A stretch of 23,861 nt of DNA. Source: a virus. Below, piece by piece: positions 1-23,687 of this stretch (position 1 is its first letter; the number at the start of each line of letters is the position of its first letter). The position numbers were made by a program, and so were the translations under genes. Below the pieces are notes generated by a model. The model was given only the letters and a program-made list of their open reading frames with translations, ran no database searches and was not told the DNA's origin. The stretch lies in IMG/VR virus record IMGVR_UViG_3300044633_000282, positions 1 to 23,861 of that record, one strand, 5' to 3'.

Positions 1-2348
1 TGGTAAAACCAGAACTCTACAGTATAATTACCGGTACCCATTGCAACTAACGAACCTGCGTTTGCCGTCAAATAATTACTACCACTAAACGCCATACTAC
101 CAGTACCATACTTTTTAGTGTTGGCATCTATTGAAACAGATCCGGTATTAGTTACTGTAAGATTATATGGTGATTTATCTAACAAATCATCACCTGTTAA
201 TCTTAACGATACACTAGACCAATTTGCATCACCTGTGATTGACATACTGCTAGTTGGTAGTGCTGTAGTTGGGGGGGTAAATGTTGAAGTATATCGAGCA
301 ACTCCTTTAGTTACTCTTAGATCATCAATGTAACCTGCCGCATAGGTGTTACGCGGATTATTAGAACCGATGACACATGTTGTATCGGTGAAATTTTGAG
401 TTAATGTAATTGCCACTACCGACACACCATTAATATAACTTGTTAATGTTCCTGCACTTCTAACAAACGCATAATGGTTCCAAGTGTTAATAGTTGCAGT
501 ACCTGCATTTGATTTTTCTACATTCGTGTATATTTCAGCAGCACCGTTATTCATTGTTGAAAATGCAATTCCTGTTGCGTTACTGTTAGTATCTCTAGTA
601 TCTAATACGCAATGCCCCCATGCAGTCGATGCCGAAGTGTAGTACATCCAATATTCAACTGTAAAATCGCCAGTTCCAAATGCAAAAACACTGTTAGAAG
701 CAGTAGTTAAGCATCCACTAGAACCATTGAAATACAATGATCCAGTTCCGTATTTTTTGTTGGTAGATGATATTCTAGTGTTGCCTGCAACAGTAACAGT
801 TGCGTGATTGTTAGAATAATCAGTTAAATCATCGCCAGTTAATCGTAACGACACGTTTGACCAATATGCATCAACATCAGTTGAATCAGCAGTTAACAAT
901 AAACTTACATTGTTAATATATGGATCAGTTGTAGCTGCTGCTGTAACTGGAAACGATTGTGATGGTGTAGAAAATGCAGTAGTATATCTTGCAATACCTT
1001 TAGATACTCTCAAATCATCTACATACCCATTTAACCATGCACCTTGCCCAGTTTCAGCACCAATATACGTATTAGCACCAGTTCCAATGCTGCCAGTAAA
1101 TGCAACTGAACCTTTAGCTACACCATTTACGTAAAAATTAAGAGTATTACCATATCTAACAAATGCAATATGATACCAAGTATTAATAACCATTCCGTGT
1201 GCAGTGCCTAAGTATGGTGTATCATTATTATGGCAGAGTAATTTAGTTTGACCGATCATACAATTAAATCCGTCACCTCCATTGTATGAGCCAACACCTA
1301 TTAGCACCATGTGACTAGACCAATTAGTTGGCCATGCATCACTAGTTGGCATCGCATTTAAGTTTACCCATGCTTCAACGGTCCAATCTAAACTTCCCAT
1401 TCCGTATATTGTTGAATATCCCGGATAGTACATATAACTACCATTACCGTTAAATGAAATAGATCCAGATCCGTATTTTTTTGTAGACGATGTAATATTA
1501 ACGGTGCTTATTGGAACAAGGAATGATCCAACAGACGAAGTATCTATTATTTGATATGATGGCAACACAGATAATGGTGGGTTAAAGTTAGAAGTATATC
1601 TAGCAATACCTTTGGTTATTCTTAGGTCATCTATATATCCCCTTACTTGACCGTTATTCCAGTAGTCTCGACCAATAAGTATATTTCCGCCACTGAATAC
1701 TTTTCCAGAAAACGTTAGTGTAGTAGCTTGTGCAACGCCATTTAAGTAACATGTAACTGTATTTGAATTACAAACAACTGCGATGTGATACCACATGTCC
1801 ATAGTAAGGGCAGTGCTTGAAAATGCAGTAGAAGAGCCTGTCCAAAATGTAGGTTTACCGTCAGATAAGTAAAATGGTGTCATTGCAGTATCAACAGTTG
1901 AACCAAAAAATTGTTCAAATCTGTTAGAACCGGTTGATTCGTATGCACCTGATGCAGATGGCCGATAGAACCAAAATTCAATAGTCCAATTATTCTGAAT
2001 GTCAAGTAACCCGCCTGATACAAACGGTACTGTTAAATAGTTTGGATTTGCAGTAGATGTATACGGAAAGAAAATTGCATTAGATCTGTATTTTTTAACA
2101 GTTGATGATAATTGAATACTCCCATTAGTAGTGACTACTGAGTGAGTAGTAGAATAATCAATAAACGTAGTTCCGCTTGCAATTCCATCACCGGTTAATA
2201 ATAAACCAACATTTGAAAAGTATGGATCAACATCTACTGTATTGCCATCAAGCAATAATGTAACATTATACCAATATGGATCAGTTGGAACAGTTGGAAC
2301 AGGTGTAACTGCACCTGCTGCAGCTTGCATTAATGATCTAGCACTCAT
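1..2348 (-). CDS. Giant multi-LamG tail/adhesin protein, cassette 3 (3' end outside window)
   Basis: Open from the ATG at 2348 to the window edge (782 codons seen, stop not reached). Four LamG (concanavalin A-like, laminin-G type) domains are recognisable at about residues 28-258, 262-468, 480-695 and from 704 on. Each has the pattern of a SLLLTGDD opening, a KKYGTGS strand, a W-Y-H-x-A core strand, and a closing GYIDDLR-TKG-ARYT-F-PP linker. The N-terminus starts MSAR, like MSSR and MSNR in the other two LamG giants. The start codon overlaps the stop of the 169-aa gene upstream (ATGA), and AAGGA lies 6 nt before the ATG. LamG domains in phage fibres generally bind surface glycans or proteins; the target here is unknown. 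It is probably about as long as its two paralogues (seven domains), but that lies outside the window. Confidence 0.85.
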   Translation of the reverse strand, partial: MSARSLMQAAAGAVTPVPTVPTDPYWYNVTLLLDGNTVDVDPYFSNVGLLLTGDGIASGTTFIDYSTTHSVVTTNGSIQLSSTVKKYRSNAIFFPYTSTANPNYLTVPFVSGGLLDIQNNWTIEFWFYRPSASGAYESTGSNRFEQFFGSTVDTAMTPFYLSDGKPTFWTGSSTAFSSTALTMDMWYHIAVVCNSNTVTCYLNGVAQATTLTFSGKVFSGGNILIGRDYWNNGQVRGYIDDLRITKGIARYTSNFNPPLSVLPSYQIIDTSSVGSFLVPISTVNITSSTKKYGSGSISFNGNGSYMYYPGYSTIYGMGSLDWTVEAWVNLNAMPTSDAWPTNWSSHMVLIGVGSYNGGDGFNCMIGQTKLLCHNNDTPYLGTAHGMVINTWYHIAFVRYGNTLNFYVNGVAKGSVAFTGSIGTGANTYIGAETGQGAWLNGYVDDLRVSKGIARYTTAFSTPSQSFPVTAAATTDPYINNVSLLLTADSTDVDAYWSNVSLRLTGDDLTDYSNNHATVTVAGNTRISSTNKKYGTGSLYFNGSSGCLTTASNSVFAFGTGDFTVEYWMYYTSASTAWGHCVLDTRDTNSNATGIAFSTMNNGAAEIYTNVEKSNAGTATINTWNHYAFVRSAGTLTSYINGVSVVAITLTQNFTDTTCVIGSNNPRNTYAAGYIDDLRVTKGVARYTSTFTPPTTALPTSSMSITGDANWSSVSLRLTGDDLLDKSPYNLTVTNTGSVSIDANTKKYGTGSMAFSGSNYLTANAGSLVAMGTGNYTVEFWFY

Positions 2349-2854
2349 TTTATATCCTTGCCCATAACAAGCCCAGACCAAGTAGTGCCACCGTCGTAAG
2401 TATAAAACCCTAATGTGTCTCTACCAGAAGTAGTTAATGTAGGAGCAGTGCCACCTACCCATTTAACACCCCACCATGTGATATTAAATGCGCCGCCATT
2501 AGTAATTTCAAGAATAAATTCAGCAACAGTACCAGTTGCTGGAGTATTAGTTACTGAAAAAGTAGTATTAGCAGCAGGAGCAGCAATAAACCAGTTACCT
2601 AATGAAAGATTAATTTCACTAGTAATACTAACTTTTGTTTCAAAGTTAGCAATTGCAGTTATTGTTTTATTTGTGATAGTTTGTGCATCAGTAGTACCTA
2701 CAAGTGTGCCAGCTGGCGCTGTTAGTGCAGTTACTGCTGATGTACCGTTACCTTTTAAAATTCCAGTTAATGATGTTGTTCCAGTACCGCCGTTTGCAAC
2801 AGCAGTCACACCATAAGTTCCGTTTTTTATAACAGATGAAAGTACTACAGCCAT
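2345..2854 (-). CDS. Small tail-fibre-like protein, cassette 3 (169 aa)
   Basis: A paralogue of the 180-aa protein at 7660-8202 and the 209-aa protein at 13417-14046. It has an N-terminal GGTG segment (VANGGTGTTSLTGILKGNG), then GTLVGTTDAQTITNKTI, a beta-rich domain, KWVGGTAPTLTTSGRDTLGFYTYDGGTTW, and a C-terminal GKDIK. The GGTG and TxTNKTI motifs are common in phage tail-fibre proteins, but I know no exact function. Its last codons encode the Shine-Dalgarno of the LamG gene it overlaps by 4 nt, so the two are probably translated together in a defined ratio. Its own start is set by AAGGA 6 nt upstream and lies inside an inverted repeat (2838-2904). It could be a connector or trimerisation partner for the LamG protein; that is inference. 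Confidence 0.85.
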   Translation of the reverse strand: MAVVLSSVIKNGTYGVTAVANGGTGTTSLTGILKGNGTSAVTALTAPAGTLVGTTDAQTITNKTITAIANFETKVSITSEINLSLGNWFIAAPAANTTFSVTNTPATGTVAEFILEITNGGAFNITWWGVKWVGGTAPTLTTSGRDTLGFYTYDGGTTWSGLVMGKDIK

Positions 2855-2904
2855 ATTAATTCCTTTTTATGTATTTATTAGAATTTTATGGCTGTAGTAC
2901 TTTC
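2838..2904 (-). promoter_or_regulatory. Perfect 18-bp inverted repeat enclosing a late-promoter motif and RBS
   Basis: Arms 2838-2855 and 2887-2904 are exact reverse complements (18 of 18), separated by 31 nt. On the mRNA the 5' arm lies just after the stop of the upstream LamG gene. The 3' arm contains the ATG and first codons of the 169-aa gene. The loop holds AATAAATA (2872-2879) and the AAGGA ribosome site. If the motif works as a T4-type late promoter, initiation near 2866 would give a transcript without the 5' arm, whereas read-through mRNA could fold and hide the start codon. No U-tract follows the stem, so an intrinsic terminator is less likely. Confidence 0.7.
2860..2879 (-). promoter_or_regulatory. 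Late-promoter-like motif fused to Shine-Dalgarno (cassette 3)
   Basis: AATAAATA at 2872-2879 matches the T4/cyanophage late-promoter pattern (TATAAATA or NATAAATA). In T4 the start site falls about 6 nt after the element, here near 2866. That would leave a 12-nt leader containing AAGGA before the ATG at 2854. The 18 nt TAAATACATAAAAAGGAA are identical to those ahead of the cassette 2 gene. Confidence 0.6.
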
Positions 2905-2908
2905 TACA

Positions 2909-5900
2909 TTACGACAATGATGTTGGTAATGGTGCTGTTGGTGGTGTGAAGTTTTGGGTGTAACGAGCAAGACCCTGCGTTACCCGCAAATCGTCAATAT
3001 ATCCGTTAAAATAACTAGCATCAGCTGATGTTATATAACCTACATACGTGAGATTATATGTTGTTGGTCTCACAGGCGTATTTGTCGATGTTGATTGTGA
3101 TGTACCATTAACAAATAATCTAGTAGTAGTGCCATCGTATGTTACTGCAACATGATACCAAGTTAACGTAGATATTGACGATGCTGACATTACTATTGGT
3201 ATTGCAGCATTACCGTAATTGTATTGGTAATATAGTGCGCTAGAACTATAATAAAATAGTAGTTGATGTCCGTTAGATTGACTCCAACTTCCTGCACCGC
3301 CACCGTTACTAAATGGTATTTGCATAGAAGTGTTGGTCGACAGGTACATCCAATACTCGATAGTATATGGTTGTGCAATGTTTAATGGAAGAGATGCAAC
3401 ACTTAAATAATCACCAGTACCATCAAACGCTAAACTACCTGTACCATATTTCTTAGTACCAGTACTAATCTGAGCATTACCGTAAGCTGTTATAGTCTTA
3501 GGCATACTGCTCAAATCCGTAAACGATGTACTTCCATTAGTACCATCACCATTTAACAACAAACTAACCTGAGCATAATTATAATCATACTGAGTACCAG
3601 TTACGATTGGGTCTTCGTATGTAGGTGGCGTAAAGTTAGCGGTGTATCTGGCGTAGCCTTTGGTAACTCTTAGGTCGTCGATGTAGCATGGAGATTGATT
3701 AACGGGGTCACTCGTACCTCCAATTACTGCAGTACTAGCACTTCCACTATCAACACTAGCTGATGATGTGTATGTAGCTTCAACCACACCATTAACAAAT
3801 AATCTAAACGTAGAGCCGTTTCTTGTGACTGCAACATGATACCAAGTATTATCATTTACCGTTGTTGTAGATGTCAGTATATTACCCGCATTATTCATGT
3901 TATATACTTCCAACATGAATTTCCTAACAGCAGGGATAGTAGCGTGACTAGATAATATAACAAAACTATTTGTAGCCCATGCTCCGGAGTTAGAATTACC
4001 ATATATCACAGGATAATTAGAAGCAACTACATTAGGTGAATTATACCAAAATTCTACAGTGAAATCACCAGTACCAAATGCTAAATTAGATGAACTCGGT
4101 ATCGTTAGATATTGACCACTACCACTAACCGCCATACTACCCGTACCATATTTCTTAGTAGTAGTATTAACAGTAACAGAACCCGTATTTGTCACAGTCA
4201 AGTTATTAGGTGATTCATCTGTAAACGATGTACTACCATTAGTACCGTTGCCTCTTAGCAATAATGATGTGCTACTGCGATTAACGTCAAATGGTGTACC
4301 AGTTGTAGTAGCTAATGCGTAGGTTGGTGGGGTGAATGATGTTGTGTAACGAGCAATGCCTTTGGTAATGCGTAGGTCGTCGATGTAACCCAAAAATGTA
4401 TTATCGCCTGGATTGTAACCACGGGTTGCAATTATTGGTCTACTTGCTCCGTTAATGTATGTAGTAGAGTCAGAATAAGTAGAACCATCTTGTACACCAT
4501 TTAAGAACATTTTTGTACTTGTTCCTGAGCGACAAACTGCAATATGATACCAAGTATTTGTTGTTAGTGTTGAACCTGTAATTCTGTCAGCACTATTAAC
4601 AAAATATCTTAATTGCCCTGCTTGTGTGTAAATGCAAGGGTAATTACCATCCGTTGATAATGGACGTTGATCATAGAAAATCGTAGTACCACTACCCCAG
4701 TTTGAAGTTTGTATCCAAACTTCAATAGTGAAATCTCCAGTACCGTAAGCAAAGTTAGAACTACCATCTAATGTCAACCAGTCACCTGTACCGTCAAACG
4801 CAATAGAACCAGTACCGTACTTTTTCTGAGCAGTACTGATTTTAGCATCACCATAAGCTGTAATAGTCTTAGGACTACTACTCAAATCCGTAAATGTCGT
4901 GCTACCATTAGTTCCTTCACCTGTCAATAACAACGACACGTCAGCGTAATTAGGGTCAAAACCTGTTGAGATATACTGAGTAGCAAATGACTGGCTAGGT
5001 GGAGTAAAGTTTTGGGTGTATCGTGCGTAGCCTTTGGTTATTCTAACGTCGTCAATGTAACCTTTGAAACTTGGAATACCACCTGGATCATACCCTAGAT
5101 ACGCAGTACTTTGAGATTGTGTTGGATTGTTAGTTAACGTAACTGTTTTACTCAAAATACCATTAACGTACATTGACCAAATATTTGAAGTTTTACATAC
5201 TGCAACATGTGTCCACACGTTAGCTGCTATTGTTTGTGTACCTGATGCAGATAACCACCCGTTTGTAGCCCATGTAGAGCCATTAATAGATACAACAATA
5301 TCTAAATATCCACTTCTTACATTTATGATTATACCTGAATAATCAGGTGAATTTACCCTATCAGTATAAAGACATCCACCAGTTGTAGGGTCAGCCATCA
5401 TAATCCATGCTTCAAATGTATAGTCGTTTGCGCCTATAATAAAATTTGACGATAATGGAGTGCCCAAATAATCCCCAGTACCATCAAAGAACATACTACC
5501 AGTACCATTCTTCTTAACATCAGTGCTAAGTTGAACATTGCCATAAGGCGTTACCGTCAGGTTGTTTTGAGTACGGTCTTGGATTTTAAATGCTGGTAAT
5601 GCTGTGGTTGGAACTGTAATGGTTCTAGCGATGCCTTTGGTTACTCTTAAATCTGCAATATAGCCTTGGAAATATGCTGGCGTTGTTATTACACCAACAG
5701 CAGCTCCTGCTTGTGTAAGAGATACACCATTAAGCAAAGTAGACGATGTTGCTACTACACTACCATTTAAATATACATTTACCGTGCCAGACTGTCTAAT
5801 TGCTGCAACATGGTACCAAGTTCCAGTAGATGGTGTCCAGGTATAGCCAATCGCATATGATGCAGAACCGTGTCTGCTAGCATACAGTTTACCACCATTA

Positions 5901-7663
5901 TACCCTAACCAAAACGGACCATCTGCGACATTGATGATATTTGTTGTTTGAAAGAATGCACAATCTTGTACCGTTGAAAAATTAACCCAACACTCTACGG
6001 TAAAATCTCCAGTACCAAAATCAAATGCGGTATTAGACGGCATCGTCAAATATTTTGTTCCGCTAAATGCTAGTGAACTAGTATTGTATTTCTTATTAGT
6101 ACTTAACGTAACAGTTCCATTATTAGTAATAGCATTATGCTGATTAGACCAATCAATAAAATCATCACCAGTTAACATCAGTGACACATTCTGCCAATAC
6201 GGGTCGTATGCGTTGGTTGTGTTACCGTCTAGTAACAGCGATACATTGCCCCACCAAGGGTCAGCTGCAATAGTTGGAGGTATTGCTGGGAGTGTTGCGG
6301 TTGGTGGTGTAAAATTAGCTGTATATCGGGCGTATCCTTTGGTAACACGTAGGTCATCGATGTAACCATACAATGGTGAGTCGGTACCTACTGCATAATA
6401 TCCACTTGAACCAATCATTGGACGAGAAGCGCCATTTAGATAATTTATAGAATCAGTATAGGTTGAACCAACTTGGACACCATTGACGTATAATTTTGTG
6501 CTACCGGTGAACCGAGCTACCGCAATATGGTACCAAGTATTAGTAACCAATGTACTTCCAGTAATTACATTAGTAGTGTTAGCATAGTAATATAAAGTTC
6601 CACCTGCGCCTATATAAATCGCAGGGTAAGTACCGTTCGTAGACGTTGGGCGAGAATCGTATATTAATTGCTGTGACGCTACTGATACGAAGTTAACTTG
6701 TAATTCTATAGTAAAATCACCAGTACCAAATGCACAAAAATCGCCAGCGGATAAAGTTATTGCATCCCCAGTACCATCAAAGTACATACTACCAGTGCCA
6801 AACTTCTTAGTAGCTGTATCGATTCTAGCGTTACCGTAAGTTGTCACAGGTAATCTATAAACTGAACTATCTAATATCTCATGTGATGGTAATGCTTGTG
6901 TAGGTGGGGTGAAGTTAGTTGTGTATCGAGCAACACCTTTGGTTATTCTTAGGTCGTCGATGTATCCGGTAAATGGAGAATAACCACCTGAACTTGCATC
7001 ACCATTACCAATTGTATAGTACGGTGTAGATGTGCTATACATTGCGCTTGCATTAGTAGCTGTTGCCTGCAGCACACCATTTAAAAATAAAGTAAATGTG
7101 CTACCACTTCGAGTTACTGCAACATGATGCCACATATTAAACGCAGGGGCAGCAAGCGATGGTAACCCAACTCCAGTATCATACGTGAAGAAGTTAATTT
7201 TGCCGGTACCTGTATCATAATTAACACCTACGCTACCTGTAGTATATGTTGAGTTAATCATAAATATGCGACTATAATTTTGTATAGATGTAGTGTAAAT
7301 CCACATCTCAATAGTGAAGTCCCCAGTTTTAATATCTAATGCTGATGAGGTTGGCACGGTTAATATTGTACCTTGCGCACCGGTAGACGAACCACTAAAA
7401 TACATGCTTCCGGTACCAAACCGCTTAATGGTACTTGATACTGATACTGATCCAGTGTTTGTAATCGTTGATCTAACGTTCGACTTATCTAACAAATCAT
7501 TACCAGTCAACAACAATGATACATTAGCAAAGTTAGTATCAACATCAGTATCGCCATTTAGCAGTAATGATACTTTATCGTAATATGGGTCAGATGGCGC
7601 AGCTGTAGAAGCAATGCTTGCAGCATATCCAGCTGAAGCGGTTAACATTACGCGAGAACTCAT
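2909..7663 (-). CDS. Giant seven-LamG tail/adhesin protein, cassette 2 (1584 aa)
   Basis: I chose the ATG at 7663 (MSSRVML) over the in-frame start 33 nt upstream, because it overlaps the previous stop as ATGA, has AAGGA 6 nt before it, and matches the MSxR start of its paralogues. Seven LamG domains lie at about residues 29-260, 264-462, 467-690, 694-890, 902-1115, 1126-1349 and 1361-1578. Each shows KK-GTGS, F-T-GDFTIE-W, WYH-AV-R, F-NG and a closing GYIDDLR-TKG-ARYT-FTPPT. The borders match those of the 1565-aa protein domain by domain, while the cores differ. Cores 2 and 5 of this protein resemble each other (RP-ST-G-YP, ITGSTL-TNTWYH, NGASRP-I). It is probably a virion-surface adhesin that binds host glycans or proteins. 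No catalytic domain or signal peptide is visible. Confidence 0.9.
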   Translation of the reverse strand: MSSRVMLTASAGYAASIASTAAPSDPYYDKVSLLLNGDTDVDTNFANVSLLLTGNDLLDKSNVRSTITNTGSVSVSSTIKRFGTGSMYFSGSSTGAQGTILTVPTSSALDIKTGDFTIEMWIYTTSIQNYSRIFMINSTYTTGSVGVNYDTGTGKINFFTYDTGVGLPSLAAPAFNMWHHVAVTRSGSTFTLFLNGVLQATATNASAMYSTSTPYYTIGNGDASSGGYSPFTGYIDDLRITKGVARYTTNFTPPTQALPSHEILDSSVYRLPVTTYGNARIDTATKKFGTGSMYFDGTGDAITLSAGDFCAFGTGDFTIELQVNFVSVASQQLIYDSRPTSTNGTYPAIYIGAGGTLYYYANTTNVITGSTLVTNTWYHIAVARFTGSTKLYVNGVQVGSTYTDSINYLNGASRPMIGSSGYYAVGTDSPLYGYIDDLRVTKGYARYTANFTPPTATLPAIPPTIAADPWWGNVSLLLDGNTTNAYDPYWQNVSLMLTGDDFIDWSNQHNAITNNGTVTLSTNKKYNTSSLAFSGTKYLTMPSNTAFDFGTGDFTVECWVNFSTVQDCAFFQTTNIINVADGPFWLGYNGGKLYASRHGSASYAIGYTWTPSTGTWYHVAAIRQSGTVNVYLNGSVVATSSTLLNGVSLTQAGAAVGVITTPAYFQGYIADLRVTKGIARTITVPTTALPAFKIQDRTQNNLTVTPYGNVQLSTDVKKNGTGSMFFDGTGDYLGTPLSSNFIIGANDYTFEAWIMMADPTTGGCLYTDRVNSPDYSGIIINVRSGYLDIVVSINGSTWATNGWLSASGTQTIAANVWTHVAVCKTSNIWSMYVNGILSKTVTLTNNPTQSQSTAYLGYDPGGIPSFKGYIDDVRITKGYARYTQNFTPPSQSFATQYISTGFDPNYADVSLLLTGEGTNGSTTFTDLSSSPKTITAYGDAKISTAQKKYGTGSIAFDGTGDWLTLDGSSNFAYGTGDFTIEVWIQTSNWGSGTTIFYDQRPLSTDGNYPCIYTQAGQLRYFVNSADRITGSTLTTNTWYHIAVCRSGTSTKMFLNGVQDGSTYSDSTTYINGASRPIIATRGYNPGDNTFLGYIDDLRITKGIARYTTSFTPPTYALATTTGTPFDVNRSSTSLLLRGNGTNGSTSFTDESPNNLTVTNTGSVTVNTTTKKYGTGSMAVSGSGQYLTIPSSSNLAFGTGDFTVEFWYNSPNVVASNYPVIYGNSNSGAWATNSFVILSSHATIPAVRKFMLEVYNMNNAGNILTSTTTVNDNTWYHVAVTRNGSTFRLFVNGVVEATYTSSASVDSGSASTAVIGGTSDPVNQSPCYIDDLRVTKGYARYTANFTPPTYEDPIVTGTQYDYNYAQVSLLLNGDGTNGSTSFTDLSSMPKTITAYGNAQISTGTKKYGTGSLAFDGTGDYLSVASLPLNIAQPYTIEYWMYLSTNTSMQIPFSNGGGAGSWSQSNGHQLLFYYSSSALYYQYNYGNAAIPIVMSASSISTLTWYHVAVTYDGTTTRLFVNGTSQSTSTNTPVRPTTYNLTYVGYITSADASYFNGYIDDLRVTQGLARYTQNFTPPTAPLPTSLS
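3541..3619. repeat. Border repeat A, copy 1 (partner 9304-9382)
   Basis: A 79-nt tract encoding the junction into LamG domain 7. It is identical to 9304-9382 except for one base (t at 3554, c at 9317). It lies at the same domain position in the two giant genes. Confidence 0.85.
6121..6262. repeat. Border repeat B, copy 1 (partner 11854-11995)
   Basis: A 142-nt tract covering the domain 2/3 junction and the start of LamG domain 3. By eye it differs from 11854-11995 at three bases. The flanking domain-core DNA is far more diverged, so the conservation is local. Confidence 0.85.
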
Positions 7664-8202
7664 TTTACATCCTTTCCAAATATAAATCCAGACCAAGTAC
7701 CGTCACTATTCAAATAAAATCCAAGTACATCTTTTCCTGAACTAGTTAGTGTGGGTGCAGTACCGCCAACCCATTTAATACTACCAGCAACACCACCAAA
7801 CGTCCAAGTAATTGATTGCGCGCCGCCATTGGATAATTCTAGTACGAAACTAGCTGCGGTAGTAGTAGGTGCTGCTGGAACGTTTGATAATGTAAATGTA
7901 GAAATCGTAGCAGTTGCAGATTTTAAAAACCAATTACCTAGACTTAAATCAATAGTAGTACCAGTAGACATATCAACTCTAGTTTCGTAGTTAGCAAGTG
8001 CGGTGATTGTTTTATTAGTTAAAGTTTGTGTATCAGTAGTACCAACGATCGTACCGGATGGTGCAGTAACGGTAGTAAATGTACTTGTTCCGTTACCTTT
8101 TATAATACCGGTTAACGTTGCTGCGCCAGTTCCACCATTGGCAACAGGTAACGTGCCGTAGTTAGTACCACCACGTAGAATAGTTGAAAGATTTTTAGCC
8201 AT
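7660..8202 (-). CDS. Small tail-fibre-like protein, cassette 2 (180 aa)
   Basis: The middle member of a three-paralogue family with 2345-2854 and 13417-14046. It begins MAKNLSTILRGGTNYG, followed by TLPVANGGTGAATLTG, then GTIVGTTDTQTLTNKTI, a beta-rich stretch (ETRVDMS, IDLSLGNWFLK), KWVGGTAPTLTSSGKDVLGFY and a C-terminal GKDVK. The start has AAGGA 7 nt upstream in a 12-nt predicted leader behind a late-promoter-like motif. The stop overlaps the start of the 1584-aa LamG gene as ATGA, and the GKD codons (GGA AAG GAT) supply that gene's Shine-Dalgarno. It is a phage virion or tail-fibre component; the exact role is not known to me. Confidence 0.87.
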   Translation of the reverse strand: MAKNLSTILRGGTNYGTLPVANGGTGAATLTGIIKGNGTSTFTTVTAPSGTIVGTTDTQTLTNKTITALANYETRVDMSTGTTIDLSLGNWFLKSATATISTFTLSNVPAAPTTTAASFVLELSNGGAQSITWTFGGVAGSIKWVGGTAPTLTSSGKDVLGFYLNSDGTWSGFIFGKDVK

Positions 8203-8207
8203 AATTG

Positions 8208-8227
8208 TTCCTTTTTATGTATTTAGT
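8208..8227 (-). promoter_or_regulatory. Late-promoter-like motif fused to Shine-Dalgarno (cassette 2)
   Basis: ACTAAATA at 8220-8227 is followed by CATAAAAAGGAA. It shares an 18-nt core with 2860-2877. The predicted start near 8214 leaves a 12-nt leader to the ATG at 8202. It sits in a 45-nt gap after the tail-chaperone-like gene. The first two bases of the element deviate from TATAAATA. Unlike the cassette 3 copy it has no strong flanking inverted repeat. Confidence 0.5.
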
Positions 8228-8247
8228 ATTACACAAACTGTACTAAT

Positions 8248-8709
8248 CTATTCCGTTGGTGTTTCTTCAGGCGGATTTAATAACGGCCATTCTACAGTAG
8301 TTGGAAATTCTGCTTGTAGTGTAATATCACGCAACGCTTGTCTATACGTTGCATACGCAGCTTTATCAACTGGCACATCAGCAACTTGTGTCCAATCGGT
8401 GTCTTTTAACAACTGGTCACGTTTTATTCTAATTTCATTTGCTGCGATAATAACATCAGCTGCAATGTCATCTTCAGTCTTATCAGCTACTTCGACTGTA
8501 AAGACTTGATTATCTTCAATATATGGATCAACTGTGACAAGTTTTTGAGTTGCTTTATCATGCGGTTTCCAGATAGTAACTCCAAGTGCCGAGTTTGCTT
8601 CCATAAAGTCAGCATCGGGCCCAGTAGTTGGAAACGATGTTGCTGGGAAAAGTTTTTTGTAGTGACCAATTTCAATAATTTGATCGTCTTTAATAATTGC
8701 TATATCCAT
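8248..8709 (-). CDS. Tail assembly chaperone-like protein (Phage_tail_APC type, 153 aa)
   Basis: The C-terminal half reads IRIKRDQLLKDTDW-TQ-DVP then YATYRQALRDIT and EFPTTVEWP. This is the hallmark R-x-x-LL-x-x-[TS]DW...YRQ-LRDI...FP---WP pattern of the phage tail assembly chaperone family (Pfam Phage_tail_APC). The N-terminal part (MDIAIIKDDQIIEIGHYKKLFP) is typical of short aquatic-phage versions. Such proteins are thought to assist fibre folding or assembly and are usually not abundant virion parts. It lies between LamG cassettes 1 and 2 and may serve these fibres. The start at 8709 is preceded by GGAG immediately after the upstream stop (TAAGGAG). The stop is TAG, and a 45-nt gap with a promoter-like motif follows. 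Confidence 0.8.
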   Translation of the reverse strand: MDIAIIKDDQIIEIGHYKKLFPATSFPTTGPDADFMEANSALGVTIWKPHDKATQKLVTVDPYIEDNQVFTVEVADKTEDDIAADVIIAANEIRIKRDQLLKDTDWTQVADVPVDKAAYATYRQALRDITLQAEFPTTVEWPLLNPPEETPTE

Positions 8710-8719
8710 TTTTTTCTCC

Positions 8720-11700
8720 TTAAGAATATGATGTTGGTAATGGTGCTGTTGGTGGTGTAAAGTTTTGGGTGTATCTTGCTACACTATTTGTTATTCTTAA
8801 GTCATCGATATAACCAGTAAAATACGACCCAGCATCTCCACCAATTTTAAATGCATTGGATGATGAGTAATTTCTTGCTGTAGTGAAACTACCATCGAGA
8901 ATACCGTTAACAAATAGTCTAGTGGTACCTGCTGATCTACAAACTGCGACATGGTACCAGGTGTTTATAGATAAAGTTGTAGATCCTATAACATCATCAT
9001 TAACTGATGCACTAACGACATCAAATTTACTGGTATAGATTACAAGTCCAAAACCACCAGATGTACTATCTCTAAAAATAATTTCGACCCCAGAAACGCT
9101 TACAGGGTACACCCATGCTTCAAAAGTATAATCATTAGTACCTAATGCAATACTGTTACTTGGTATACTTAAATAGTTGCTACCACTGAATGAGATACTA
9201 CCAGTTCCAAACTTTTTAGCTGTAGTATTAACAGTAACAGAACCTGTATTGGTAATAGTCTTAGGACTACTACTCAAATCCGTAAACGTAGTGCTGCCAT
9301 TAGTACCATCACCATTCAACAACAAACTAACCTGAGCATAATTATAATCATACTGAGTACCAGTTACGATTGGGTCTTCGTAGGTTGGTGGTGTAAAGTT
9401 GGCGGTGTACCGCGCGTAGCCTTTTGTTATACGGAAATCGTCTATGTAACCAGACATTTGTCCCCCACCCCCAGACAAGCCATACCACCATCCTATATTA
9501 GCAAACGTATTTGTAAAATCAGTAGTGCTATCAGTAAAAGACGTACCTTGTTGTATACCATTGAAAAATAATGATACCTGGCCTTTGCATCTAACCAATG
9601 CCAAATGAAACCATGTATTTGCAATAGGTGCGGTGCTGCTAGTAGTTGCGGAATATGTACCATTATAGTATACTCCCCACGCATTATTATAATAACCTAC
9701 TGCCAAACCGGAAACACTTGGTGAGGTAGAGTTTGTAGGTGCTAACTGAAATAGTCCATTATTTGTAATAGCATCAAACATAGCCCAACATTCTATTGTT
9801 AAATCGTTTGTTCCAAAATTTCCTATTGAATTAGTTGTTCGTAATCCATTTCCCACTCCATTTATACGAATACTACCTGTACCATATTTTTTATATGTAG
9901 TATTAATTGCCGCTGTTCCATCTACAGTTATAGCGTAGTTATTAGGTGATTCATCTGTAAACGATGTACTACCATTAGTACCATTGCCTCTTAGCAATAA
10001 CGACGTATCAGCACGATTAACGTCAAATGCTGTACCAGTTGTAGTAGCTAATGCGTAGGTTGGTGGTGTGAAGTTGGTTGTGTAACGAGCGATGCCTTTG
10101 GTAACTCTAATATCATCTATATACCCTGACACTAATGGGTAGTTATCGTTACCTGAACCAAACCGATAAATTGTACTAGAAAGGTTCGCTGACGATGTTG
10201 CAGTCCCACCAGATACACCGTTTATAAATATATTGAATGTTGTACCTACTCTACATAAAGCTACATGCGTCCAACTATTTGTAGCTGTTGATACAGATGT
10301 GCTAATAAGCCATCCACTACCATGATATACACCAATTTTATTTGAAAGACCTGGGTCGTTATATAATAGTCCAAATCCTGCTGTATCACCGTACGTAGAC
10401 CTAGAATCAAAAATATATTGGTCAGCGGTACTAGATGAAAAGTTAACCCACATCTCAAGCGTAAAATCAGCAGTTCCAAACCCAGTATCGGTAACTACAA
10501 GTTTTGAACAATTTGACGTTGATGTCCCAGCAAACAATATACTACCGGTACCATATTTTTTTGTACTGGTGGTAATTGTGGCAGCTACGGGTCCATTATT
10601 AGTAATAGTCTTAGGACTACTACTCAAATCATTGAACGTCGTACTACCATTTGTCCCTTCACCTGTCAATAACAACGACACGTCGGCGTAATTAGGGTCA
10701 AAACCTGTTGAGATATACTGAGTAGGAAATGACTGGCTAGGTGGAGTAAAGTTTTGAGTGTATCTGGCGTAGCCTTTGGTTATGCGGAGGTCGTCGATGT
10801 AGCCTGTAAGAGCTTCTGACGTAAAAGCATGAGTAGATGTTCCAATATAATTTCCAGCAGAGCATGAATGTGAAGCAGATGAAGTTACTGTGTATATAGA
10901 CGTACCGTTAATAAATACTTTTAAGGTAGAGCCTGACCTAGTAACAGCGACATGACACCAAGTATTTATTGGAATAAAAGAAGATAAATCAGTAGCAGTC
11001 CCTACAAAAGAGAAATAGTCAAACCTAAACATTAACCCGGATATGTAATCACCTATACTAAAAAATGTTTGGAGATTATATGTACTTGCTCTATACACCC
11101 AAGCTTCAACAGTAAAATCACCTGTTCCAAAACTTAAAGAAGTTGATACAGGTACGGTTAAATAATCCCCAGTACCGTCAAAGTACATACTCCCAGTACC
11201 ATTCTTCTTAACATCAGTGCTAAGTTGAACATTGCCATAAGGTGTAAGCGTCAGGTTGTTCTGAGTACGGTCTTGGATTTTAAATGCTGGGAGTGCTGTG
11301 GTTGGTACTGTAATGGTTCTTGCGATGCCTTTGGTGATACGGAGGTCTGCTATTTGACCGTTAAAACTTCCATTATAAAATTTACCAATGGTTAATGGAT
11401 ATCCTGTAGATGATTGAGGCGTCCCAGTAATAGCAGTGTACCCATTTCCAACACCGTTTACCCATATTTGAAAACCAGAAGAATTTTTTGTTAATGCGAT
11501 ATGTGACCACACTCCTTGTGATATAGTCGCAGTTGATTTAATTGGGGTAACTACTGAACCGATATAATAATACATTGCTACTACACCAGACGCTATTGGC
11601 CCAAACGACCAGTAGTTGATGGAAGACGCAGGAGTCATATTACCGATCAAATTTGATACAAAATTACCTTCTGTTGTTGTAACTTGACAGCTACTAAGAC

Positions 11701-13417
11701 TTGTTGGATTAATCCAAAATTCTAATGTAAAATCTGAAGTCCACCAATCAAATAAAGTCGTTGAATATGATATACTTAAATAATTACTACCACTAAAATT
11801 GTAAGAACTAGCATTAAACTTCTTATTAACTGTACTCAGCGTAACCGTACCATTATTAGTAATAGCATTATGCTGATTAGACCAATCAATAAAATCATCA
11901 CCAGTTAACATCAGTGACACATTCTGCCAATACGGGTCGTATGCGTCAGTTGTGTTACCGTCTAGTAATAGCGATACATTGCCCCACCAAGGGTCGGCTA
12001 AGATGGTTGGAGGTATTGTTGGGAATGCTGTGGTAGGTGGTGTGAAGTTAGCTGTGTATCTTGCGTAGCCTTTGGTTATTCGCACGTCGTCTAAGTATCC
12101 ATTTGGATTTTGACCACTAGTTGAACCGCCAACCCCTATATAACCGGATGTACTCGCATCTAATGAAGCGGTACTAGTGTACGTGGATTCTAGCGCACCA
12201 TTTACAAACATCCTAAACGTACTACCCTGTCTGGTGACGGCTAAGTGGTACCATATACCATTTACAACTGATGTTGTACTAGCTAAAAAATTAACAGCTA
12301 TATTATTTGCACCAAATACAAATTTTGTAGTATCACTGTTATTATCCCTATCGTTTAAATACCAACAATCTGTAATCCAATCATTAGCTGCAGTCCCCCT
12401 ACATATAACTCTAGGAAAGCCGTTTACTTTGCTTATAGGTTGATACCAAAGTTCAATAGTAAAGTCGAAAGTTCCTAAACTAGTCGCAGAAGAGTTTGGA
12501 ATATATGCGTAATCCCCTGAACCATCAAAATACATACTACCAGTACCATATTTCTTAGTAGCAGTATCAATTCTAGCGTTACCGTAAGTAGTTACAGGTA
12601 AGCTATAAACAGACCTATCTAATATCTCATGTGATAGTAATGCTTGCGTAGGTGGGGTGAAATTGGCTGTGTATCTGGCAATGCCTTTTGTTATACGGAG
12701 GTCGTCGATGTAGCCGTTGACGCACATTTTACCACCATCTCCCCAACCATTACCGTTACCGCCTATATAACCTGAATTACAAGTTAACGAAGAACTATAA
12801 CTAGTATTTTGAGCTTCGATATTACCATTTACAAACAGTTGAATAGTTGTTCCTGACCGCACTAATGCTATATGATGCCATACAGTAGAAGCAAATGTAT
12901 TAGTAGATATTAGTACTCCATCTGTTCCATTTGCATGTAACGAGAATTTTTGAGAGTACTGTACTCCATTACCTGTAGAATTATATCGTATTGCAAACCC
13001 AGTAGCATCCCATGTAGGTGAAGATATTAAAGATGGGTATGATGAGGAAGACGCACCATTGTTATAATACCAACATTCTATTGTAAAATTGCTATTTCCA
13101 AAATCAAACACTGTATTTGTAGGTAATGACAAATAATCGCCAGTACCATCAAAATAATAACTTCCAGTACCAAATTGTTTTTTAACGCTAGTTACTGTTG
13201 CATTGCCATAAGCTGTAACAGCCAACTTGTTATTAGACTTATCCAGCAAATCATTACCAGTCAACAACAACGATACATTAGCAAAGTTAGTATCAACATC
13301 AGTATCGCCATTTAACAGTAATGATACCTTGTCATAATATGGATCAATAGCACCTACTACTGGATAATAACCAATCCCGCCAGTTGATGCTGCATTTATA
13401 ATCTTACGATTGCTCAT
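8720..13417 (-). CDS. Giant seven-LamG tail/adhesin protein, cassette 1 (1565 aa)
   Basis: The start MSNRKIINA overlaps the upstream stop by 1 nt (TAATG), with AAGGA 9 nt before it. Seven LamG domains lie at about residues 31-257, 266-462, 480-706, 716-893, 912-1119, 1138-1344 and 1362-1557. Each shows KK-GTGS, W-H-A-R, F-NG and GYIDDLR-TKG-ARYT-NFTPP. The order of border motifs is the same as in the 1584-aa paralogue: DPYYDKVSLLLNGDTDVD, ILD-SVY-LPVTTYGNARID, DPWWGNVSLLLDGNTT, IQDRTQNNLT, FDPNYADVSLLLTG, FDVNR, YDYNYAQVSLLLNGDG. The cores between borders are largely unrelated in detail. Domain 7 ends in a degenerate RITNSVARYT. It is a likely surface-exposed receptor-binding or adhesive fibre component; the ligand is unknown. 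Confidence 0.9.
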   Translation of the reverse strand: MSNRKIINAASTGGIGYYPVVGAIDPYYDKVSLLLNGDTDVDTNFANVSLLLTGNDLLDKSNNKLAVTAYGNATVTSVKKQFGTGSYYFDGTGDYLSLPTNTVFDFGNSNFTIECWYYNNGASSSSYPSLISSPTWDATGFAIRYNSTGNGVQYSQKFSLHANGTDGVLISTNTFASTVWHHIALVRSGTTIQLFVNGNIEAQNTSYSSSLTCNSGYIGGNGNGWGDGGKMCVNGYIDDLRITKGIARYTANFTPPTQALLSHEILDRSVYSLPVTTYGNARIDTATKKYGTGSMYFDGSGDYAYIPNSSATSLGTFDFTIELWYQPISKVNGFPRVICRGTAANDWITDCWYLNDRDNNSDTTKFVFGANNIAVNFLASTTSVVNGIWYHLAVTRQGSTFRMFVNGALESTYTSTASLDASTSGYIGVGGSTSGQNPNGYLDDVRITKGYARYTANFTPPTTAFPTIPPTILADPWWGNVSLLLDGNTTDAYDPYWQNVSLMLTGDDFIDWSNQHNAITNNGTVTLSTVNKKFNASSYNFSGSNYLSISYSTTLFDWWTSDFTLEFWINPTSLSSCQVTTTEGNFVSNLIGNMTPASSINYWSFGPIASGVVAMYYYIGSVVTPIKSTATISQGVWSHIALTKNSSGFQIWVNGVGNGYTAITGTPQSSTGYPLTIGKFYNGSFNGQIADLRITKGIARTITVPTTALPAFKIQDRTQNNLTLTPYGNVQLSTDVKKNGTGSMYFDGTGDYLTVPVSTSLSFGTGDFTVEAWVYRASTYNLQTFFSIGDYISGLMFRFDYFSFVGTATDLSSFIPINTWCHVAVTRSGSTLKVFINGTSIYTVTSSASHSCSAGNYIGTSTHAFTSEALTGYIDDLRITKGYARYTQNFTPPSQSFPTQYISTGFDPNYADVSLLLTGEGTNGSTTFNDLSSSPKTITNNGPVAATITTSTKKYGTGSILFAGTSTSNCSKLVVTDTGFGTADFTLEMWVNFSSSTADQYIFDSRSTYGDTAGFGLLYNDPGLSNKIGVYHGSGWLISTSVSTATNSWTHVALCRVGTTFNIFINGVSGGTATSSANLSSTIYRFGSGNDNYPLVSGYIDDIRVTKGIARYTTNFTPPTYALATTTGTAFDVNRADTSLLLRGNGTNGSTSFTDESPNNYAITVDGTAAINTTYKKYGTGSIRINGVGNGLRTTNSIGNFGTNDLTIECWAMFDAITNNGLFQLAPTNSTSPSVSGLAVGYYNNAWGVYYNGTYSATTSSTAPIANTWFHLALVRCKGQVSLFFNGIQQGTSFTDSTTDFTNTFANIGWWYGLSGGGGQMSGYIDDFRITKGYARYTANFTPPTYEDPIVTGTQYDYNYAQVSLLLNGDGTNGSTTFTDLSSSPKTITNTGSVTVNTTAKKFGTGSISFSGSNYLSIPSNSIALGTNDYTFEAWVYPVSVSGVEIIFRDSTSGGFGLVIYTSKFDVVSASVNDDVIGSTTLSINTWYHVAVCRSAGTTRLFVNGILDGSFTTARNYSSSNAFKIGGDAGSYFTGYIDDLRITNSVARYTQNFTPPTAPLPTSYS
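9304..9382. repeat. Border repeat A, copy 2 (partner 3541-3619)
   Basis: The second copy of the 79-nt junction into LamG domain 7, with one mismatch to 3541-3619. It is a candidate homology tract for recombination between the paralogous genes. Confidence 0.85.
11854..11995. repeat. Border repeat B, copy 2 (partner 6121-6262)
   Basis: The second copy of the 142-nt tract at the start of LamG domain 3, with three mismatches by eye to 6121-6262. The spacing to the partner is 5733 nt. Confidence 0.85.
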
Positions 13418-14046
13418 TATTTTAAGTCCTTACCAATCACATATCCAGTCCAAGTTGCTCCAGCATCATAGGTATAAAAACCAAATGAATCACGACCAGA
13501 AGATGTCAAACTAGATGGAGCAGTACCACTTACCCATTTAACAGTAGAAGTGCCACCAGCAGCCACTGACAATGTCCATGTAATAGTTGCTAATCCAGCA
13601 TTAGTTAAATCCAACACAAATGAACCAACTGAACCAGCAGCAGGAATATTACTTACAGTAAATGAAGTTGCACCAGCAGTTAATGTTTTAGTAAAATATG
13701 AACCTAATGATAAATCAATATCTAATGCAGCCATTGCTACTCTAGTTTCATAAGAACCTAATGCAGTAATAGTTTTGTTAGTTAATGTCTGTGTATCAGT
13801 TGTGCCAACAATTGTTCCAGTCGGAGCTGTTACTGCAGTAAATGCAGATGCACCATTGCCTTTTAAGATACCAGTTAATGTAGCCGCACCTGAACCACCT
13901 TGAGGAACTGATAACGCAGTAGTTAATCCAGTTAATGATGTGATATCACTGTTAGCTCCAGAAGCAGCTTGTCCTGCTAAGGTGTCAGTTGATTGTAATT
14001 CTTGTATTGTAGTGCCGTTAAGCACTAATGGATATCTTGATGTCAT
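13417..14046 (-). CDS. Small tail-fibre-like protein, cassette 1 (209 aa)
   Basis: The longest of the three small cassette paralogues. Its N-terminus differs from the others: MTSRYPLVLNGTTIQELQ, then ANSDITSLTGLTTALSVPQGGSG, which resembles other phage tail-fibre segments. The shared part follows: ATLTGILKGNGASAFTAVTA, GTIVGTTDTQTLTNKTI, a beta-rich region with ETRVAMAALDIDLSLG, KWVSGTAPSSLTSSGRDSFGFY, and a C-terminal GKDLK whose codons give AAGGA ahead of the LamG start. It overlaps the upstream gene by 1 nt (TAATG) and the LamG gene by 1 nt. There is no room for a promoter of its own, so it is probably translated from a longer operon transcript. Virion structural protein; precise role unknown. 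Confidence 0.85.
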   Translation of the reverse strand: MTSRYPLVLNGTTIQELQSTDTLAGQAASGANSDITSLTGLTTALSVPQGGSGAATLTGILKGNGASAFTAVTAPTGTIVGTTDTQTLTNKTITALGSYETRVAMAALDIDLSLGSYFTKTLTAGATSFTVSNIPAAGSVGSFVLDLTNAGLATITWTLSVAAGGTSTVKWVSGTAPSSLTSSGRDSFGFYTYDAGATWTGYVIGKDLK

Positions 14047-22394: not shown

Positions 22395-23639
22395 TTAAAT
22401 TCCGCCTCCGTCGACTGGTGGTAATCCACCGTAATTTGACCAGGGGGTGCCTCCGTCCAGATTGCCAATTCCGATAGTTGATCCACCTGTACCAGTTCCA
22501 CCACCAGTTGCACTTAAAATACCCGTTTGAGAAATTTCTAAACCTGTACCAATTATTACACCGCCTAATGTATTTATAGAAGCAATTGGTAAGGTGTACC
22601 CAGAAGTTCCGGCAGGTCCTTGTATACCTTGAATCCCTTGCGGTCCAGTTGCACCAGTTAACCCAGTATCGCCTTTAACGCCTTGTGGTCCAGTATTGCC
22701 TTGAATCCCTTGCGGTCCAGTTGCACCAGTTAACCCAGTATCGCCGTTAACGCCTTGTAGTCCAGTTGCACCGGTTAACCCAGTATCGCCTTGAATGCCT
22801 TGCGGTCCAGTTAACCCAGTATCGCCTTTAACGCCTTGTAGTCCAGTTGCACCTTGTAGTCCAGTTGCACCTTGCGGTCCAGTTAATCCAATATCACCTT
22901 GTGGGCCTTGTGATCCGGTATCGCCTTTAATGCCTTGGATGCCTTGGTCGCCTTGCGGTCCAGTTAATCCAATATCACCTTGGATGCCTTGTGGGCCTTG
23001 TGATCCGGTATCGCCTTTAATGCCTTGAGGACCAGTTAAACCAATATCACCTTGGATGCCTTGTGGTCCTTGCGGTCCTTGAATACCTTGCGGTCCAGTT
23101 GCCCCGGTTGGTCCAGTTGGTCCAGTTGGCCCTATAAGTCCTTGAGGACCTCTAAATGAACCAATACTTTGCCAAGCAGTACTGTTCCAAAAATATCCAT
23201 CACCGGTAGAAGTGATTACATAAAAATCACCAGTTACGTTATCAATGAGTGGTAAATCATTAGCTGTCGTTACTGCACCTTTAATAATAATAGATGTGCC
23301 GGTATCACCGGTATTACCTTTAGGTCCTTGCGGTCCAGGTGTAGTGGATGCAATTCGCCATCCACCTGCATATCGAATGTTTAATACACCGGTATTTGAG
23401 TTCCACCATAATGTGCCAGTAGCAACACCAGAAGGAGGATTAGCAGAAACAATAATAGTTGCATTTCCGCCACCTCCGCTACTTGACCCAATATTGATAG
23501 GGATACCTCCAAGAGTAACACCATCGGAAAGTCTTAGATCACCAATTTCTTCATTATAAAATATAGTTCCAATTACACCAACATACTCGTCGGCTTCAAT
23601 GGTTGTAACACGTCCTGATTTAATCTTTTGAATAGTCAT
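22395..23639 (-). CDS. Collagen-like tail fibre protein (414 aa)
   Basis: I prefer the ATG at 23639 ([19 protein letters not shown]) over an in-frame TTG 33 nt upstream, because the [34 protein letters not shown] start is the usual N-terminus of such aquatic-phage fibres. After it come residues about 65-101 ([17 protein letters not shown]), a short [13 protein letters not shown], a domain at about 115-160 ([17 protein letters not shown]), then about 184 residues of Gly-X-Y triplets at 164-347. The tail has [16 protein letters not shown] and ends [22 protein letters not shown]. Collagen-like triplets form trimeric rods in phage fibres. The DGG tail recurs in the next two genes. No Shine-Dalgarno is evident before the chosen ATG. 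Confidence 0.85.
22571..22578 (-). promoter_or_regulatory. TATAAATA inside the collagen gene, possible late promoter
   Basis: An exact match to the T4 late consensus, 177 nt upstream of the Mtd-N-like start. It lies in codons for SINTL, a common phage sequence, so the match may be dictated by coding. Weak support. Confidence 0.25.
22599..23150 (-). repeat. Collagen-like Gly-X-Y coding repeat
   Basis: About 61 triplets rich in [15 protein letters not shown] and GVK. Sub-blocks such as [16 protein letters not shown] recur with near-identical DNA, so expansion and contraction are likely. Confidence 0.9.
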
Positions 23640-23643
23640 ACTG

Positions 23644-23651
23644 TATTTATT
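23644..23651 (-). promoter_or_regulatory. AATAAATA late-promoter-like motif upstream of the collagen gene
   Basis: AATAAATA is followed by CAGT and the ATG at 23639, in the 48-nt gap after bS21. If it acts like a T4 late promoter, its start would fall at about the ATG itself, giving a leaderless message or implying a different start. This lowers confidence. Confidence 0.4.
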
Positions 23652-23687
23652 GTATGCTAAACAAAAGATCAATCAGTAGTTATGTGA

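Follow-up and report, generated by a model that had tools for sequence, protein, structure and literature searches.

We found that the leader of a 169-aa tail-fibre-type gene in this viral DNA is probably a translational switch of the T4 gene e type, in which a predicted hairpin would silence read-through mRNA and a late RNA started from within the loop would be translated. The T4 precedent and the logic of late-promoter hairpins are documented, and a T4 review lists e, soc, 49, and I-TevI (PMC3014915). The hairpin before the 169-aa gene very likely belongs to the T4 e/soc/49/I-Tev kind.

The stretch analysed here (the window) is 23,861 bp long, is the entire virus record, and reads almost wholly on the minus strand. 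The virus is an uncultured bacterial virus and a relative of the jumbo phages. Besides a collagen-like gene and several genes of the fibre type, the minus strand carries three cassettes, each pairing a short tail gene with a large LamG gene. These cassettes lie in tandem at positions 1-14046 (-), each with a short fibre-type gene and a multi-domain LamG gene that overlap by 4 nt or 1 nt, and they apparently arose by duplication followed by divergence. The features discussed are:

1..2348 (-): third LamG ORF, sharing 4 nt (ATGA) with the 169-aa ORF and extending past the window edge
2345..2854 (-): 169-aa tail-fibre-type ORF of cassette 3 (phrog_9017, E 1.4e-10)
2838..2855 (-): 3' arm of the 18-bp stem, including the ATG (2854-2852) and first codons (inverted repeat and fold)
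2861..2865 (-): Shine-Dalgarno AAGGA, 6 nt before the ATG (sequence)
2866 (-): predicted late transcription start, the sixth base after AATAAATA, giving a 12-nt leader, AAAGGAATTAAT (from T4 late promoter geometry)
2872..2879 (-): loop segment AATAAATA, resembling a late promoter (motif; over-represented before genes of a 372-kb relative)
2880..2885 (-): 5' side of the upper 6-bp stem, AAUUCU, whose partner GGAAUU (2863-2858) includes the Shine-Dalgarno (fold)
2887..2904 (-): 5' arm of the 18-bp stem, GAAAGTACTACAGCCATA (inverted repeat and fold)
2909..7663 (-): upstream LamG (Laminin_G_3) tail ORF, with its stop TAA (2911-2909) 4 nt before the 5' arm
23615..23676 (-): collagen-gene hairpin, with arms at 23676-23652 and 23641-23615, AATAAATA (23651-23644) in the loop, and the ATG (23639-23637) in the 3' arm

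The original prediction described an exact 18-bp inverted repeat around the cassette 3 leader, and its two 18-nt arms are indeed 100% complementary and lie 31 nt apart. As it also stated, the 5' arm follows the upstream stop codon, and the start codon and first codons of the 169-aa ORF sit within the 3' arm. From the upstream LamG stop to the gene, the leader reads GAAAGTACTACAGCCATA-AAATTCTAATAAATACATAAAAAGGAATTAA-TATGGCTGTAGTACTTTC. The earlier account of the loop needed correction: AATAAATA and AAGGA both lie between the arms, but the RNA fold shows the stem resuming past a 1/2-nt internal loop with 6 extra pairs, which the first reading had missed. Because of this upper stem, most of the Shine-Dalgarno is paired and only 16 nt remain as the actual loop, AAUAAAUACAUAAAAA (2879-2864), which consists of the late-promoter-like AATAAATA and a spacer. 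In T4, a late promoter consists of an 8-bp TATA box, placed roughly one turn of the helix before the transcription start (PMC2988020). Judged by motif and position alone, AATAAATA is placed so that the predicted late RNA would be without the 5' arm.

No other pair of closely spaced inverted repeats in the window is as long as these 18-nt arms. When the window was dinucleotide-shuffled 60 times, exact arms peaked at 9-14 nt, and the exact repeat exceeds chance expectation. RNA structure prediction, which had been proposed as a check, bore the hairpin out, with -40.7 kcal/mol over 131 nt compared to -18.2 +/- 2.9 for shuffles (z -7.8). The late RNA from 2866 would begin AAAGGAATTAATAUG, and no stem is predicted to be possible in it. 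To compare the two RNAs, we computed the energy required to open the region from -15 to +6 around the start (the opening cost), which is predicted to be 23.1 kcal/mol in read-through RNA versus 1.9 in late RNA from 2866. By the same computation, the read-through/late values for T4 were 15.7/0.8 kcal/mol for e, 16.1/3.5 for 49, 15.6/3.5 for I-TevII, and 8.5/3.8 for soc. The similar cassette 2 leader (ATG 8202), said in the original prediction to have no such repeat, lacks a comparable stem, with a predicted read-through cost of only 5.4 kcal/mol (1.1 in late RNA). On these predicted energies, the 169-aa leader has the anatomy of T4 gene e and is at least as strong.

The likeness to T4 gene e (PMC3014915) covers both the predicted fall in opening cost and the layout, in which the 5' arm lies upstream of or overlaps the late promoter, the Shine-Dalgarno and AUG are in the stem, and the late transcript would lack the 5' arm. 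The window stem is, however, longer and perfect, the sequences are unrelated, and the window gene is a tail-cassette gene that follows another tail gene. At T4 soc and gene 49, the start region is likewise occluded, and soc too encodes a virion protein, although the soc stem is predicted to be weaker (its read-through value above) and both genes are unrelated to the 169-aa gene. T4 I-TevI/II/III, segB, and Aeh1 mobE (PMC3014915) also combine a hairpin with a late promoter, as do two GIY-YIG genes of the 372-kb relative described below; they are mobile homing endonucleases, whereas the window gene is a tail gene.

In the proposed switch, read-through mRNA from the upstream LamG gene would form the 18+6-bp hairpin, which would pair the Shine-Dalgarno, the AUG, and the first codons and leave no room for 30S binding. 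The 169-aa gene and the overlapping LamG gene would both be silent in this mRNA, the third LamG being controlled through coupling. A T4-type late sigma (gp55) would initiate at AATAAATA in the loop to give a transcript from near 2866; without the whole 5' arm, its AAAGGAATTAAT-AUG would be open and translated. Here we infer the promoter activity, the start site, the silencing, and the presence of late factors in this phage. The gene e logic put forward in the original prediction gains from the anatomy, the predicted energies, a design that recurs with covariation in other leaders, and gp55 in the 372-kb relative. The need for read-through silencing is less clear, as the upstream LamG gene (cassette 2) has a late-like promoter variant of its own, ACTAAATA, in front of it. 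Because this upstream neighbour is itself a tail gene, the benefit at the 169-aa gene is less obvious than in T4, and the likely use would be to tie cassette 3 output to its own promoter rather than to cassette 2 read-through, so insulating cassette 3. No terminator-like site was found on the minus strand between the upstream LamG ORF and the hairpin.

Relatives of this virus show signs of late transcription of the T4 type. A PHROG profile search of long contigs identified a gp55-type late sigma in the 372-kb relative G013 (E 1.9e-26) and the 327-kb relative G019 (E 1.4e-28). The nearest cultured matches of these proteins, at about 47% identity, were in jumbo phages of the PA5oct/Paride group. 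A single-protein T4 gp55 query against short relatives gave no match, and the 24-kb window itself has no gp55 gene. In G013, ATAAATA was observed upstream of 64 of 487 genes, compared to a mean of 26.6 and a maximum of 44 for permuted motifs; as a word within the window, it was not over-represented.

Exact-arm and loop-pattern scans of viral contigs found no relative carrying the 169-aa hairpin, and neither a nucleotide search of a phage collection with the hairpin region nor an Rfam search gave a match. Two pattern matches (L345/L346) were rejected as not homologous, as they lie before another gene whose ATG is not enclosed by a corresponding stem. Eight contigs have the combined promoter and Shine-Dalgarno sequence, ATAAATACATAAAAAGGAA, unchanged, in front of ORFs that lack this hairpin. 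As no relative has the 169-aa hairpin, the case for it is one of anatomy, energy, and analogy.

The same design recurs in an interrupted hairpin before the collagen-like gene (23676-23615 (-), z -4.5), which the first reading had not noticed and which has the order CTGATTGATCTTTTG..TAGCATAC-AATAAATACA-GTATGACTA..CAAAAGATTAAATCAG. An S21-like (rpsU) gene ends upstream of it, and after such a gene the hairpin would act as a classical early/late barrier. It is kept in about a dozen contigs, L177-L187 among them, while nearby non-coding upstream bases diverge. Arm changes include A-U to G-C in L182/L184, C-G to U-G in L185, and G-U for A-U, and 97.1% of alignment cells are paired versus 28-40% for slid versions. 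One-sided changes retain pairing as G-U in the mRNA sense, which points to an element acting at the RNA level. The distant contig L189 has at its collagen-type leader a different short perfect stem of 6 bp, CATACC-GATAAATATT-GGTATG, around GATAAATA.

A third hairpin family precedes a gp9/10-like baseplate gene (Pfam PF07880), with the order GATCCTCATTTTAC-GATAAATA-TTAGAATGAGGATC (L105:19611-19652). It has a stem of about 11-14 bp and is kept in L265-L281 despite different flanks, with A-U to G-C in L280/L281. Covariation support for the collagen-gene and gp9/10 hairpins is modest, as the sequences are few and shuffles sometimes match the observed counts. Our scan also identified single late-promoter hairpin cases in G010 and the 327-kb relative, and two GIY-YIG endonuclease genes of the 372-kb relative (L220, 263694; L221, 295425) ranked high, with the late motif within a stem over the Shine-Dalgarno. 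The same scan recovered T4 I-TevII and I-TevIII.

Similar leaders were observed in cultured phages 121Q and Paride, which also have a gp55 homologue. A late-promoter-like motif lies within a stem hiding the Shine-Dalgarno in 121Q (L364-L381) at 35078 (121Q gene 49, 14-bp stem) and at the tail sheath gene (262851), and in Paride (L349-L363) at the tail tube gene (281528); Paride has further late-motif hairpins at 277082 and 6308. Together, they precede a DnaJ-like gene, tail sheath, tail tube, and other genes, often at junctions from an early-type to a structural gene (dNMP kinase/tail sheath, homing endonuclease/tail tube). They differ from the window in that their leaders are not homologous to its leader, and their switching, too, would be predicted from sequence. 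In a swapped-arm control on 205 late leaders, strong stems occurred at approximately four to five times expectation (E <= -22 in 8/205 vs 1.0% of swapped pairs; E <= -24 in 6/205 vs 0.64%). Raw duplex energy showed no overall enrichment of strong leader stems at late-promoter starts relative to all other starts, and therefore only a minority of late genes would use hairpins. From these sequences, the predicted combination of hairpin and internal late promoter recurs independently at other genes of this phage group.

This recurrence bears on the other ways in which the 169-aa repeat could be read. It could be a mutational by-product without function, in which template switching placed an inverted copy of the gene start upstream of a normal late leader. 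The exact 18-bp identity, the absence of the hairpin from all relatives found, and the very similar cassette 2 leader without it are all in keeping with such an origin. We nevertheless consider this unlikely, because 6 further base pairs involve the Shine-Dalgarno and the loop is reduced to the promoter, and because the same layout arose elsewhere, two families of it showing covariation. A stem of recent origin would, on prediction, block translation of read-through RNA all the same. Long, perfect RNA stems are possible targets of a double-strand-specific nuclease, and the length and perfection of this one would suit an RNase III-type processing site at which read-through mRNA is cut, either parting the LamG message from the 169-aa message or destroying the start codon. 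As the main role this is somewhat less probable still: the conserved sister elements have far shorter stems (6 bp in L189 and about 11-14 bp at the gp9/10-like gene), and their common features are a loop with a late promoter and a stem that occludes the AUG or the Shine-Dalgarno. Such cleavage may act alongside the hairpin switch. A DNA-level element, such as a recombination or binding site for exchange of the repeated tail cassettes at whose junction the repeat is located, or a transcription terminator, is very improbable, given the G-U pairs retained in the mRNA sense in the sister element and, for the terminator, which we rejected on this ground, the absence of a U-tract after the stem and of any terminator call there.

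The preferred reading, a T4 gene e-type switch, extends beyond this gene. The T4 lysozyme hairpin has so far been regarded largely as an exception; the same layout is found here at unrelated tail genes of uncultured jumbo phages, and cultured jumbo phages of E. coli and Pseudomonas have similar ones. This suggests that a hairpin with a late promoter is a repeatedly invented means by which an operon can be read through into a late gene without translating it. The 121Q and Paride leaders are directly testable in laboratory phages, and the hairpin layout helps to spot late promoters in metagenomic phages.

The distance from ATAAATA to the ATG in the 372-kb relative (L207-L225) was found to be bimodal. 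At 3-7 nt there are 11 genes, none of which (0/11) has a Shine-Dalgarno, and at 13 nt or more there are 52 genes, 41 of them with one. Permuted motifs gave a mean of 2.8 and a maximum of 6 genes at 3-7 nt, versus the 11 observed. T4 has no genes with such short spacing, and Paride and 121Q showed no excess. Leaderless transcripts are reportedly mentioned in a paper on jumbo phage AR9; in the open literature, we found no report of leaderless mRNAs from T4-type late promoters. A broader and tentative possibility, which we hold to be less likely than not, is that hairpins enclosing a late promoter became widespread in one T4-type jumbo lineage as the standard gate between early and late translation ahead of tail genes. 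In part of these, the promoter would lie 4-5 nt from an AUG without a Shine-Dalgarno and yield a leaderless late mRNA, the AUG being buried in long messages and forming the 5' end in late transcripts. In the window, the collagen-like gene (23651-23637) belongs to the close-spaced, Shine-Dalgarno-free group, and the spacing pattern suggests leaderless late mRNAs in this lineage, this gene included.
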